This document shows positions 13,199 to 22,342 of a DNA stretch of 64,000 nt, piece by piece. This DNA comes from Synechococcus sp. AG-679-B05. Its GTDB lineage: Bacteria; Cyanobacteriota; Cyanobacteriia; PCC-6307; Cyanobiaceae. The stretch is taken from positions 1 to 64,000 of the forward strand of contig QCUJ01000003.1 in assembly GCA_003210795.1 (NCBI GenBank). The letters are read 5' to 3'. The notes beneath the pieces are model-generated. The model was not told the DNA's origin. It worked only from the letters and a program-made list of their open reading frames with translations, and ran no database searches. Each line of letters begins with the position of its first letter. The stretch's first letter is position 1. The position numbers and the translations under genes are program-made.

Positions 13199-13748
13199 GT
13201 GATCAATACCTCGCGCCTAAATATCGAAAGCCTGCGACACGCCGCAGGACCTCAAGTGCGCCGGTACATCAGCAGATTTTCCGACTCGATGGAGGTGCGT
13301 TCGACTGCTGAAACGGTTACGCATCATCTCGATAAACATCAGCCTTGGTTTCAACGCTGTAAAGAACCCATGGCTGCCCGCGAAATGGACGATCAGACCT
13401 ATGTCCTGACACTCGGCCAATTCGGAAACTTTGGCTTCGAAATTGAGCCAACCATTGCCCTGAAACTGCTACCTCAAAAGAATAATATTTATCGGATGGA
13501 AACAGTGGAAGGTGATCACGCAATCGATCAATCCGCACAGCCATTACGACGTCGATTTTGAAGCCAAGATGCTCCTGTAGCCCAGCGAGTCAAACCAGTC
13601 AGTCAACGCAACCGTGCAGTGGGATCATGACCTAAGCGTGTGGATACACTTACCGAAAGTGATCACCCGCTCCGACAAATTGTGCATCAAATCTCTCGCC
13701 GACTTATATGGAAAGTTTAAGAGTATTTTCACGTGTCTAAAGGCTTGA
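13199..13748 (+). pseudogene. decayed DUF1997-like gene (frameshift plus in-frame stop)
   Basis: First frame reads to YRMETVEGDHAIDQ; the +1 frame then gives INPHSHYDVDFEAKMLL, a TAG at 13578-13580, and continues as PSESNQSVNATVQWDHDLSVWIHLPKVITRSDKLCIKSLADLYGKFKSIFTCLKA. The xVxWDxDLxVxIxxP pattern resembles the DUF1997 C-terminus. Confidence 0.65.
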
Positions 13749-13805: not shown

Positions 13806-14183
13806 TCAGGCCTGTGGAATACCACGACTCCTGGCAGTCTCTAACTGACGTTGCCTGAGGTCAATCAAGTGTTCAAAATCAACCCAGTGAATGCAATCAA
13901 CAGGGCATGTATCGATTGCTTCTTGTATCCTTTCAATTGAATCTCCGTCCTGACGAATGGCTCGACAACGACCCGTCTCAGCAATCATTAAAAAGGTGTT
14001 GGAAGCTACATGCGCGCAATAACGGCACCCGATGCAATCTGATTCTTCAACCCAAACAGCCTTCTGACGCAATTCGCCTCCCAAGACAGGCTCATCGCCA
14101 GTCTGCAGTGACTCATTGAGAGTTAAAGGTGTTGAAAAAGCATGAACAACACCTAATTCATCCTGGAAGGATCCATCATCCAC
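13806..14183 (-). CDS. 4Fe-4S ferredoxin-type protein
   Basis: ESDCIGCRYCAHVASNTFLM...EAIDTCPVDCIHWV: CxxCxxC and CPVDC cluster motifs. Confidence 0.9.
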   Translation of the reverse strand: MDDGSFQDELGVVHAFSTPLTLNESLQTGDEPVLGGELRQKAVWVEESDCIGCRYCAHVASNTFLMIAETGRCRAIRQDGDSIERIQEAIDTCPVDCIHWVDFEHLIDLRQRQLETARSRGIPQA

Positions 14184-14196
14184 GGCTCAAAAAGAA

Positions 14197-14961
14197 TCAG
14201 CGAATCGTGAACATCGCGTTAACGACAGAAAGCACGACCACAACAGAGGTTGAAGCTGCTATCACCAAGAATGCCAACCAAAACTTGAGGATTCGGCCCT
14301 CTGGCTTCTCATAAATCAACCTAGAAACTGTCAGAGGATTGGATATTTTATTGAACTCAACAACAGACATCATCAAACTTTCACTAATCAAACGATCACG
14401 CCAATCCTCTCCATATCGGGGCAAACGCTGATAAATCGGCATTTCACCGATCGGACGCCCCGGGATCTTTCGGCTGACCTGCTCTGGCACGGAGTCGTAA
14501 CCAAAGCGATTCATATATTCAGGGCTATCAAGAATATCGTCCACAAATCCAACAAAACCTTTTTCAGCAATCAGAACTGCCCAAGATCTTTTTTCATCTT
14601 CACCGAATACTGGACGACCGAGGACACGACCAACAACCTGCTCAACAAGACGATAATTAGAACTACAGGCTACATAGCCCCTGTAAAATCGATCCGACAG
14701 CAACAACCCCCGCACGAAATCACGAATAGTGATACTCCCGTCTTTGTATTGAGACTCGAGAAATATTTCTCTGTCGCAGGACATGGAGTGAAAAAAGATT
14801 TGGCGATAGCATTTATCAATCACTTCGGCGGCCGCTTCAGTGGACTGGTCCGGACGAATATCCGGAAAAGAGTCTGACAGCCGCTTAACTCTCGCGTTCT
14901 GGGTTACAAGCCTGAAAGGGAGCTGATTTCCAACCGAACTCTTAACCACAGGGCTATTCAA
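14197..14961 (-). CDS. cpcL: membrane-anchored phycobilisome rod linker, CpcL (CpcG2-type)
   Basis: Pfam00427-like linker: IDKCYRQIFFHSMSCDREIFLESQYKDGSITIRDFVRGLLLSDRFYRGYV...VVGRVLGRPV...KGFVGFVDDILDSPEYMNRFGYDSVP. Ends in a hydrophobic helix FWLAFLVIAASTSVVVVLSVVNAMF. TTG start. Confidence 0.87.
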   Translation of the reverse strand: MNSPVVKSSVGNQLPFRLVTQNARVKRLSDSFPDIRPDQSTEAAAEVIDKCYRQIFFHSMSCDREIFLESQYKDGSITIRDFVRGLLLSDRFYRGYVACSSNYRLVEQVVGRVLGRPVFGEDEKRSWAVLIAEKGFVGFVDDILDSPEYMNRFGYDSVPEQVSRKIPGRPIGEMPIYQRLPRYGEDWRDRLISESLMMSVVEFNKISNPLTVSRLIYEKPEGRILKFWLAFLVIAASTSVVVVLSVVNAMFTIR

Positions 14962-15191
14962 AATTAAGATGCTAATTATGAACCAAGCGGAAAATACAAG
15001 CGATCCAAATCACGCCAACAAGCGAATCAAGAGAGGAGGGCCGCCGGCATTAAAGCAGGCGCAGGGGCAGCATTTTATACTTTATATTGCATTAAATAAG
15101 TCGCCCACGCATTAACGGCAATAAGCCAAATGAACTTGGAGGAGGGCGGTCAGGCTTTGGTGATAAAATTTGGTCTAGGAAAAAGATCTAA

Positions 15192-15434
15192 ATGGCACTG
15201 AGCGGATTCGAAATCGCGATGGGGGGGGTTAGCTCGATCCCCGTTCTTGGAGGCCTGATTTTCTTGGGCTTTAAGGCCTTTGGCGAAAAGAATCTCGATG
15301 CTTCCAAGTTAAAGCCCAAAAAACCCGCCGCTGCTGAAAAGAAACCAGCTCCTGCAGCCAAAAAAGATCCTGCCGCTGCTGAAAAGAAACCAGCTCCTGC
15401 AGCCAAAAAAGATCCTGAATCATCAGAGAAATAG
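15192..15434 (+). CDS. small membrane-anchored protein with Ala/Pro/Lys-rich repeat tail
   Basis: 80 aa; hydrophobic N-terminus then two copies of PAAAEKKPAPAAKKD. Confidence 0.7.
   Translation: MALSGFEIAMGGVSSIPVLGGLIFLGFKAFGEKNLDASKLKPKKPAAAEKKPAPAAKKDPAAAEKKPAPAAKKDPESSEK
15324..15413 (+). repeat. 45-bp tandem repeat, two copies, within the 15192-15434 CDS
   Basis: 15324-15368 and 15369-15413 are almost identical (first codon CCC vs CCT), encoding PAAAEKKPAPAAKKD twice. Confidence 0.95.
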
Positions 15435-15546
15435 TTTGCGATTAAAAGTCGCAAACGATCAAATTTCGAGCCTTGACTAATTGTAATATAAAAATCAAAA
15501 ATCGATAATTCATTGATGTAATTTCATGCATTCAAATAGCATTAAA

Positions 15547-16050
15547 TTAGCCGCCAAGGCTTACTTGATATAACTTTCCGATAAATTCGTTGGAGTAAAT
15601 AAACCAAGCAACGAGAGCGCCTAAACTTCCTCCCAGCCAGAAAAAAGTCTGGAACTGTGTCCAACTCTTGGAATTAAACAACTCCTTGGGAGGGTTGGGT
15701 ACAGTTGGATTTGCGGGAGGCTGATAAAATTTACCTCCAGCTTGGCCATAGAGGAAAAACAATGTAGTGAGTATGGTTACACCGCCAATGGTCGAAAACA
15801 AACCAATGGTCGTTGAAAATTCAGTGTTACGCATCGGCCCAAGAACTGTAAATGGGCCGTACAAAACAAAACCAAATGCTGAACCCAGCTGAAGCCCCCT
15901 AGACTTAATCGATAGACCTTGCCGGTACATCGGCAGCAGATTAATGATTGATCGAACTGCGATATTGCTATTAACTGGTGTAATTAAATCCCCAGCACAA
16001 GGATCTTGAAAAGGCCTGACTGTCGACAATGGCTTGGAATTTTCGTTCAT
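15547..16050 (-). CDS. psaL: divergent photosystem I reaction center subunit XI (PsaL-like)
   Basis: FQDPCAGDLITPVNSNIAVRSIINLLPMYRQGLSIKSRGLQLGSAFGFVLYGPFTVLGPMRNTEFSTTIGLFSTIGGVTILTTLFFLYG follows the PsaL pattern (TPVNSS...LPxYRxGLSPxxRGLExG.AhGyfL.GPF...GPLRNTE...GLlStIG). Confidence 0.88.
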   Translation of the reverse strand: MNENSKPLSTVRPFQDPCAGDLITPVNSNIAVRSIINLLPMYRQGLSIKSRGLQLGSAFGFVLYGPFTVLGPMRNTEFSTTIGLFSTIGGVTILTTLFFLYGQAGGKFYQPPANPTVPNPPKELFNSKSWTQFQTFFWLGGSLGALVAWFIYSNEFIGKLYQVSLGG

Positions 16051-18433: not shown

Positions 18434-18907
18434 ATGACTGAAAGCGTTAACCCAAAAATCACAAGTGCTGGCTTGCTGGTTTTAAGACTGTTTGCATCAA
18501 CACTGATGATTCACCATGGCATTGAAAAGCTTTCTGATGTTGAGGGTTTCACAACTTATATCGTTGATCAATACTTTGCCTTCCTGCCTCTTAACCACGC
18601 TCTATGGACCACGGCAGCCGCTTACACCCAAATTATTGGGTCAATTTGCCTTTTAGCTGGCCTCGTAACACGAGCTTCGGCGATCGGTTTGGCTTCAACA
18701 ATGGTTTTTGCATTGGCATTTCATGGACTTGATACCGGTTTACAGGGAGCACCCCTTGGCATCGTTGATGCACACAATTATGAATACGAGACTTCAGCGC
18801 TGTACTTGGCAATTTTTGCAGGTTTGACAATATGGGGTAGCGGATCGTTCAGTATTTCTTCATTATTTAAATCATTTCTACCTGAAAAAATTCAACCATG
18901 GGCATGA
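18434..18907 (+). CDS. DoxX family membrane protein
   Basis: GLLVLRLFASTLMIHHGIEKL...IIGSICLLAGLVTRASAIGLASTMVFALAFHG. Confidence 0.85.
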   Translation: MTESVNPKITSAGLLVLRLFASTLMIHHGIEKLSDVEGFTTYIVDQYFAFLPLNHALWTTAAAYTQIIGSICLLAGLVTRASAIGLASTMVFALAFHGLDTGLQGAPLGIVDAHNYEYETSALYLAIFAGLTIWGSGSFSISSLFKSFLPEKIQPWA

Positions 18908-20343: not shown

Positions 20344-20712
20344 ATGCTTGTACTAAACGTCATCCTAGGACTTACAGCAATAGCTTGGATTATTATCGGA
20401 ATTAAGACACATGCAGATTGGGTGGTTAATATTTTTGACCAAGAAAGCCGAAAAATAAAAAATCAACAAACTGCAATTGAAAAATATGGATATCAGTCCG
20501 TCACTTCTTTGGATGTCTTGTCTCCCAAGAAGGCATTTGTGTTCGGCTATTGGGATGGGGCAGAGTCAAACGAAAAACAGAAAGAAAATGTCAAAGTTGG
20601 GAAAAGCCCATTAATTTTTCAAATAGTTAATGGAAGTTTGATCGCTTTCACCTCAATTGCTTTTTTAACAGTGCTTAGTCGTGGACTCTTTACTGGGATC
20701 GGATTACTTTAA
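20344..20712 (+). CDS. membrane protein, hypothetical
   Basis: 122 aa with hydrophobic N- and C-terminal segments. Confidence 0.6.
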   Translation: MLVLNVILGLTAIAWIIIGIKTHADWVVNIFDQESRKIKNQQTAIEKYGYQSVTSLDVLSPKKAFVFGYWDGAESNEKQKENVKVGKSPLIFQIVNGSLIAFTSIAFLTVLSRGLFTGIGLL

Positions 20713-20729
20713 TCAGCAACTAATTTATA

Positions 20730-20897
20730 GTGACTTTGAAAGCATGTGTGATCTGTAAGCAAGTATTTTATGCAAGTAGTCCAAGACAACTAGCATGCTG
20801 TAAACAATGTCGCGCTGCATTAGTAAAAAAAAGAAATCGAACTAGGCTCAAATACCAAATTGTCACAAAACATCGGTCAATACGCGATGCAGAGTGA
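20730..20897 (+). CDS. 55-aa cysteine-rich, zinc-ribbon-like protein
   Basis: GTG start; MTLKACVICKQVFYASSPRQLACCKQCRAALVKKRNRTRLKYQIVTKHRSIRDAE (CxxC...CCxxC). Its TGA overlaps the GTG of the next ORF at 20894. Not in the ORF track. Confidence 0.55.
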   Translation: MTLKACVICKQVFYASSPRQLACCKQCRAALVKKRNRTRLKYQIVTKHRSIRDAE

Positions 20898-21217
20898 CAT
20901 CATTTTGTCACGTCACTAGGGATTATTTGACACCTGCAGAGGCTTATAATTTGCCATCATTTGAAAGTTCGATCAATTTGATTCAAATGCAGGAGCAAAA
21001 GATTGCTTTAGCAAAATCGATGACAAGTTTAATATCTTCCAAGGCTTTTATAAGCATTTCGTTTATAGTGATAATGACTAGTGCCTTGTTTCAAATACTA
21101 ATAAGCACTGAGGATCAACTCAGTGCTTATATAGCTGTTATACCAGCTTCAACAGTTATCATCATGGCTTGGTTCACTGTAGTTCGACGCCTTTTCAACA
21201 AATCTGGAAATGTTTGA
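20894..21217 (+). CDS. two-TM membrane protein, hypothetical
   Basis: 107 aa; FISISFIVIMTSALFQILI and AYIAVIPASTVIIMAWFTVV. GTG start overlapping the upstream stop. Confidence 0.6.
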   Translation: MTSFCHVTRDYLTPAEAYNLPSFESSINLIQMQEQKIALAKSMTSLISSKAFISISFIVIMTSALFQILISTEDQLSAYIAVIPASTVIIMAWFTVVRRLFNKSGNV

Positions 21218-21425
21218 TTCTAACAACAATTTGTCCAAAACATTCAGAGGTTTGGGATTTTCATTTTTCATGTGCGGTGCATTTTTTCATTGCGTCGACT
21301 TTCTTGGAGTTGAGCAGACTCTTGAATGGGGAACAGGGATGGGATTTATGGCTACAATCGTTTTGACAATTTATTTTTGGGCAAAATATTTAACCCGCAA
21401 TAAAGTCTGGAAATCTATCTTTTAG
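21210..21425 (+). CDS. two-TM membrane protein, hypothetical
   Basis: 71 aa; ATG overlaps the 3' end of the preceding ORF. Confidence 0.6.
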
Positions 21426-21451: not shown

Positions 21452-21745
21452 ATGAGTAACTATCAAATTTCTGTAACTTATAATGACAACCTCTATGAAT
21501 TTGAATGTGCTGACAACGAATATATTTTAGAGGCCGCAGACCGACATGAAATCGAACTACCATTTTCATGTCGTGCAGGTGCCTGTTCGACTTGTGTAGG
21601 AAAAATAAATCAAGGGAGCGTGGACCAGCACGATCAAAGCTTTTTGGACGACGATCAATTGGCTGCAGGGTTTGCCCTGTTATGCGTCTGTTTTCCCACA
21701 TCTGATCTCAATATCGAAGCTGGGGTGGAAGAGCAGATATATTAG
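21452..21745 (+). CDS. petF: plant-type [2Fe-2S] ferredoxin
   Basis: [64 protein letters not shown]: CxxxxCxxC...C cluster. Confidence 0.95.
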
Positions 21746-21829
21746 TAGCTTGCATAACACCGTGAAGTCACATAAGTGTCGTAGCTCTGCCCAAAAACGT
21801 CCAAAATAGAACAGATTTTGCATGAAGTC

Positions 21830-22342
21830 ATGCGTTTTACTATTGTTTACGCATCGGCAACTGGTCATACAGAAGATATAGCTGAACGATTAAATACATT
21901 ATTGCCAGACTCAGAATTAAAAGATTTGGATAGAATTGATTTCACAAAAGAGTTAGAGGAAGCTGAGGCATTAATTTGTTGCACGCCAACTTGGAATACA
22001 GGATCTGATGTAAAGAGATCCGGAACAACTTGGGACGAACATATCGACAATATTCCTCAACTTGCGTTAAAAGATAAGCCAATTGCCATTGTTGGCTTGG
22101 GTGATTCGGCGGCTTTCAGTAAATATTTCTGTGATGCGATGGAAGAGCTCTACAGGTCTTTCCAATCTGCAGGAGGTCGAATGATTGGACATGTGTCCGT
22201 CGATCAATATATTTTTGATGAATCAAAAAGTGTTATCGACGGAATGTTTTGCGGGCTTCCCATTGACGAGGACAATGAGTCAGAAAAAACTGATAATCGC
22301 CTACAAGCTTGGGCTCAAAGCTTACTAAAAGAAATGAATTAA
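21830..22342 (+). CDS. isiB: long-chain flavodoxin
   Basis: MRFTIVYASATGHTEDIAERL... CTPTWNTG... VGLGDSAAFSKYFCDAMEELY ... GMFCGLPIDEDNESEKTDNRLQAWAQSLLKE. Confidence 0.93.
   Translation: MRFTIVYASATGHTEDIAERLNTLLPDSELKDLDRIDFTKELEEAEALICCTPTWNTGSDVKRSGTTWDEHIDNIPQLALKDKPIAIVGLGDSAAFSKYFCDAMEELYRSFQSAGGRMIGHVSVDQYIFDESKSVIDGMFCGLPIDEDNESEKTDNRLQAWAQSLLKEMN

Follow-up and report, generated by a model that had tools for sequence, protein, structure and literature searches.

A divergent PsaL paralog and a CpcL-type linker in a reshuffled gene set of marine Synechococcus: a candidate low-iron photosystem I-antenna module

Three neighbouring genes of Synechococcus sp. AG-679-B05, encoding a 4Fe-4S ferredoxin, a phycobilisome rod linker and a PsaL-like protein, raise the question of whether a photosystem I (PSI) subunit, an antenna linker and an electron carrier can form an accessory unit of their own. 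The original prediction proposed such a PSI-antenna module. We examined it in the window (the whole stretch of 64,000 nucleotides), in its genome (G000, an assembly 77% complete in 109 contigs), in 34 genomes of the window's genus and in a family-wide set of 400 genomes (G and C numbers below denote genomes and contigs). Its named near relatives, AG-679-D13, AG-673-B04, AG-670-B23 and AG-683-C23, are Synechococcus single-cell genomes. We lean slightly towards regarding the cluster as an accessory iron-limitation PSI-antenna module, and hold with good confidence the weaker claim that these are accessory genes tied to iron limitation.

Gene content of the locus

The three genes are all complete and all on the minus strand, and their ORFs and Pfam matches bear out the predicted protein types. 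The cluster extends beyond the segment 13806-16050 to about 22.3 kb, with a 2Fe-2S ferredoxin, a flavodoxin, a DoxX-family protein and small membrane proteins in addition (Table 1). Fd2 lies downstream of cpcL2 at a spacing of 13 bp, so that the two genes probably constitute one operon; cpcL2 has an alternative GTG start at 14949. PsaL2 is located 585 bp upstream of the CpcL2 start, and this distance, together with the opposite-strand ORF in the gap, suggests that it is a separate transcription unit. The same PsaL2-CpcL2-Fd2 arrangement is present in two sister genomes (G211 and G212, 98% identical). The dN/dS ratios of PsaL2 and CpcL2 range from 0.05 to 0.24, and both are therefore taken as working genes rather than chance ORFs.

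Table 1. Features of the extended cluster, in window coordinates
Feature	Position	Strand	Evidence
Fd2, second 4Fe-4S ferredoxin copy	13806..14183	-	Fer4_13, E 3e-14
CpcL2, CpcL-type rod linker with C-terminal TM helix	14197..14961	-	PBS_linker_poly PF00427, E 1e-33, 116 bits
80-aa small membrane protein, Lys/Ala-rich tail, divergent from cpcL2	15192..15434	+	homologs beside cpcL2
PsaL2, divergent PsaL paralog, 167 aa	15547..16050	-	PF02605, E 2e-41, 141.9 bits (cut-off 25)
DoxX-family membrane protein	18434..18907	+	PF07681; also adjoins PsaL2 in G186, G203
m122, conserved membrane protein	20344..20712	+	synteny: with PsaL2 (G186, G203), with CpcL2 in many other genomes
m107, small membrane protein	20894..21217	+	kept in PsaL2 islands of G186, G203
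m71, small membrane protein	21210..21425	+	kept in PsaL2 islands of G186, G203
petF2, plant-type 2Fe-2S ferredoxin	21452..21745	+	PF00111, TIGR02008; adjoins PsaL2 (G186, G203), isiA/CpcL2 in others
flavodoxin, isiB-type, FldA	21818..22342	+	PF00258; NF006738 above cut-off

The 80-aa protein exhibits a core sequence SIPVxGGLIFLGYKSFGE followed by the Lys-rich tail. Its homologs occur in 14 other genomes, nearly all of them adjoining cpcL2, and it has no Pfam match and belongs to no known family. A DUF1997 gene (13199-13561, plus strand) matches the first half of the family profile only and is highly variable between the near-identical sister genomes; it is possibly decaying beside the inserted block.

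Divergent copies of PsaL, CpcL and ferredoxin

The window PsaL exhibits 47-51% amino acid identity to the canonical PsaL of the same genus (47-55% for the whole PsaL2 group), and canonical proteins within the genus share 89-100% with one another. In a maximum-likelihood tree, eight PsaL2 proteins form one clade (support 100/100) apart from canonical PsaL, so that the window protein is divergent as predicted and does not group with the vertically inherited PsaL of its genus. PsaL2 is carried by 8 of the 34 genomes of the genus and by no other genus among the 400 family genomes: a PsaL2 profile run against these gives at least 279 bits for the eight PsaL2 proteins and at most 221 bits for the next best, canonical sequences. 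The NCBIfam equivalog model of PsaL scores PsaL2 at 173 bits, under its cut-off of 316. Eight alignment columns separate the two forms with no exceptions. In one of them the glutamate of the GLE motif, which we take from PSI structures to be a chlorophyll ligand, is replaced by glutamine in all eight PsaL2 sequences and in none of 33 canonical ones. The C-terminus of PsaL2 is 4-5 residues shorter than the canonical one in seven of the eight aligned sequences, the eighth (G207) being derived from an N-containing sequence. PsaL folds are the best Foldseek matches to the AlphaFold model of PsaL2, which is of low confidence (pLDDT 59, shallow alignment). No relative of PsaL2 was found in viral contigs, and a viral origin was rejected. 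Outside the genus, two PsaL matches each were obtained in G003, G027, G097, G321 and G333; they may be fragments or true second genes.

Both forms of PsaL occur together in five of the eight PsaL2 genomes (G186, G203, G207, G209 and G210). PsaL2 is thus a paralog that has diverged from canonical PsaL and occurs alongside it in related genomes. The original prediction called for a check on a second, canonical psaL in the window genome itself. There the assembly contains a single psaL, the divergent one, and canonical PsaL was likewise not detected in G211 and G212. Taken at face value, PsaL2 could have taken over from canonical PsaL in this lineage, being simply the organism's PsaL. We regard this as highly improbable in view of the canonical locus. 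In G210, the nearest relative in which that locus is intact, psaL is flanked by a glycosyltransferase gene on one side and an AcrB-type gene on the other, and this genome carries both PsaL forms. In G211 the two flanking genes break off at the extreme ends of two contigs, and the glycosyltransferase is cut by a contig end in G212. Neither immediate flank was found in the window genome, where a nearby alanine racemase is at a contig end. With the locus thus falling at contig ends or in an assembly gap, canonical psaL appears unassembled rather than lost.

The window genome contains nine PF00427 matches. Besides CpcL2, these include CpcG1 and a further linker, CpcL1. CpcG1 (contig C20) has no membrane helix (maximum KD19 0.28), whereas CpcL2 exhibits the predicted C-terminal hydrophobic helix (maximum KD19 2.65), placed at residues 219-247 in a model built with 17 aligned relatives. 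This model matches solved rod-core and CpcL linkers, including the CpcL of 8hfq, in fold comparison. The other protein, CpcL1, is the ordinary linker encoded in the phycobilisome region (G000:C4 46546-47136; L156 13505-14269) and ends in a hydrophobic helix, by which it looks like a CpcL; it is presumably the protein called CpcG2 in marine Synechococcus. In the tree CpcL2 falls in a well-supported clade separate from both CpcG1 and CpcL1. Being a third protein, with a helix and a clade of its own, CpcL2 is accordingly a second CpcL-type linker. It possesses the PF00427 domain and the C-terminal helix of CpcL, and the assembly of core-less, PSI-bound rods is a prediction from these features.

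The ferredoxin is an extra copy. A core copy of the 4Fe-4S ferredoxin is present in almost all genomes of the genus, and in nine CpcL2 genomes a second copy adjoins CpcL2 while the core copy lies elsewhere. With a divergent paralogous PsaL, a membrane-anchored linker separate from CpcG1 and an additional ferredoxin, the observations that would have counted against the original prediction (a sole, vertically inherited psaL, or a linker grouping with ordinary CpcG and devoid of a helix) were not made. The accessory character of these genes is thereby upheld. The adjacency of PsaL2 and CpcL2 in one lineage only, and the presence of another membrane-anchored CpcL-type linker in the genome, speak against the module itself.

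A reshuffled gene set with flavodoxin and isiA

PsaL2, CpcL2 and Fd2 each represent a second copy of a core gene, diverged and conserved. They are part of a gene set that is reshuffled among genomes and that also comprises flavodoxin, a 2Fe-2S ferredoxin, DoxX and several small membrane proteins. CpcL2, Fd2, the small protein, m122 and flavodoxin are found inside about 4 kb in G202, G210, G218 and G219. CpcL2 is near isiA in six genomes, grouped with the small protein and m122 in three (G089, G201, G209) and with 2Fe-2S ferredoxin and flavodoxin in the other three (G186, G203, G213). PsaL2 is found together with m122, DoxX, 2Fe-2S ferredoxin, flavodoxin, m71 and m107 in G186 and G203, which are complete genomes possessing all the genes. 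The proteins m122, m107 and m71, which travel with PsaL2, CpcL2 and flavodoxin, are candidate unrecognised iron-stress proteins.

Direct adjacency of PsaL2 and CpcL2 is confined to three 98%-identical genomes of one lineage and represents one evolutionary event. Independent low-iron or niche genes might simply pile up at a hypervariable site, PsaL2, CpcL2 and Fd2 having no joint function. The gene order indeed differs between genomes, PsaL2 and CpcL2 are distant or on separate contigs in G210, G186 and G203 (about 555 kb apart in G186), and the chromosomal site of the window, from purH to ispH, holds flavodoxin and not the PsaL2-CpcL2-Fd2 block in G004 and G061. However, recombination repeatedly brings together the same dozen genes, m122 is tied to both PsaL2 and CpcL2, and both proteins are under purifying selection; we therefore judge mere co-residence to be unlikely.

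Within the genus, CpcL2 is confined to genomes with flavodoxin: 17 of 20 such genomes carry it, against 0 of 14 flavodoxin-negative ones (Fisher p ~1e-6, shared ancestry ignored), and among genomes at least 90% complete in 9 of 12 with flavodoxin and 0 of 7 without (p 0.003, shared ancestry again ignored). Neither test takes account of kinship, and the physical linkage of the genes weighs more. CpcL2 and flavodoxin are both present in all eight PsaL2 genomes, and nine CpcL2 genomes show no PsaL2. Flavodoxin or isiA occurs in the genomic neighbourhood, as expected for an association with the isi regulon. A Fur-box-like site was found neither upstream of the cluster genes nor upstream of isiA, which served as control, and the scan therefore carries no information. 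Three complete or nearly complete genomes (G174, G215 and G220) carry isiA and flavodoxin without CpcL2 or PsaL2 and offer natural controls. The joint occurrence of isiA, isiB and a particular ferredoxin has been reported in four marine Synechococcus strains (Dufresne et al., PMC2441476).

Since flavodoxin, isiA and ferredoxins are the partners that are conserved, the trigger, as read from the neighbouring genes, is likely iron limitation rather than light colour, and the particular light conditions originally suggested are not borne out. A module for acclimation to light colour or intensity has a precedent in the green-light response of CpcL antennae in CA1 cyanobacteria (PMC9415938). Yet the cluster holds no recognisable photoreceptor, lyase or phycobiliprotein gene, and the neighbours conserved with it are genes for electron carriers and isiA; such a module is very unlikely here.

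A possible PSI isoform and its known relatives

Several reports bear on the function of such a gene set. From Synechococcus 7002, CpcL-PBS-PSI complexes could be obtained when cyclic flow was raised, for example by low iron, but not from cells grown normally; in these complexes the rods dock where PSI monomers meet (PMC9319322). PSI trimers are described as dependent on PsaL (Chitnis and Chitnis 1993, cited in PMC9938196). In iron-stressed Anabaena, the PsaL-like domain of IsiA2 replaces PsaL (PMC9938196). In view of these reports and the one on isiA and isiB, the cluster is best explained as encoding an iron-limited PSI isoform that has a rod antenna of its own. When iron is scarce, PsaL2 would take the place of PsaL in some of the PSI complexes, altering the PsaL face and the oligomer contacts of PSI. 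Short phycobilin rods, anchored in the membrane by CpcL2, would dock on PsaL2-PSI at the monomer-monomer interface. Electrons would be accepted by flavodoxin or alternative ferredoxins, probably favouring cyclic flow, and the few, iron-costly PSI centres would thereby collect more light.

The most specific form of this proposal is tentative and, as a whole, rather doubtful: an iron-triggered PSI isoform system of marine Synechococcus, similar in its logic to far-red acclimation (FaRLiP), in which PsaL2 reshapes the inter-monomer interface into a specific dock for CpcL2 rods, coupled to flavodoxin and alternative ferredoxins, with rods and IsiA together feeding scarce PSI. PsaL2 could instead be a partner of IsiA, breaking or reshaping PSI oligomers so that IsiA binds, CpcL2 being a separate low-iron antenna gene that shares the island. 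PsaL2 is surrounded by iron-stress genes, isiA is present in most PsaL2 genomes, including that of the window (contig C30), and the IsiA2 domain of Anabaena is a precedent; the loss of the last 4-5 residues and the E to Q change at the likely chlorophyll-ligand site also count in its favour. But PsaL2 is unfused to IsiA, does not adjoin isiA in the loci examined, and by score stands nearer to ordinary PsaL (138 bits to 6kif) than to the PsaL-like domain of IsiA2 (95 bits), and we consider this alternative rather improbable.

In large regions of the ocean iron is limiting for marine Synechococcus, and of the photosystems PSI carries the highest iron cost. If the proposed isoform with its CpcL2 rods is correct, these cells make a separate form of PSI for low iron, served by a phycobilin antenna of its own, and a reason is offered for the low-iron appearance of CpcL-PBS-PSI in Synechococcus 7002. 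In the open-licence literature on CpcL with isiA, or on a second psaL in marine Synechococcus, no account of the cluster was found.

Four known systems resemble the cluster in part. CpcL2 shares with CpcL (formerly CpcG2) the PF00427 domain, the C-terminal membrane helix and the fold of 8hfq, but it constitutes a second, separate clade, and its gene lies away from those of the phycobilisome, in the company of flavodoxin, isiA and ferredoxin. The IsiA2/IsiA4 proteins of Anabaena and Leptolyngbya, which bear a C-terminal PsaL-like domain, likewise represent an additional PsaL linked to iron limitation. In contrast, PsaL2 is a stand-alone 167-aa ORF with no IsiA (CP43-like) domain, which excludes an IsiA-PsaL fusion, and its sequence is nearer to ordinary PsaL. 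The PSI isoforms of far-red acclimation (FaRLiP) also include a paralogous PsaL, designated PsaL2, in an acclimation gene cluster. The far-red PsaL proteins exhibit only 26-28% identity to the window PsaL2 (7s3d, 7lx0), and membership in that system was rejected, none of psaA2/B2/F2/J2/I2, ChlF, RfpABC or apc paralogs being recognised among the window genes near the cluster. Finally, the isiAB iron-stress operon shares flavodoxin and, in the relatives, isiA with the present gene set; in marine Synechococcus this set is extended with CpcL2, PsaL2, ferredoxins and small membrane proteins, and is scattered and shuffled.
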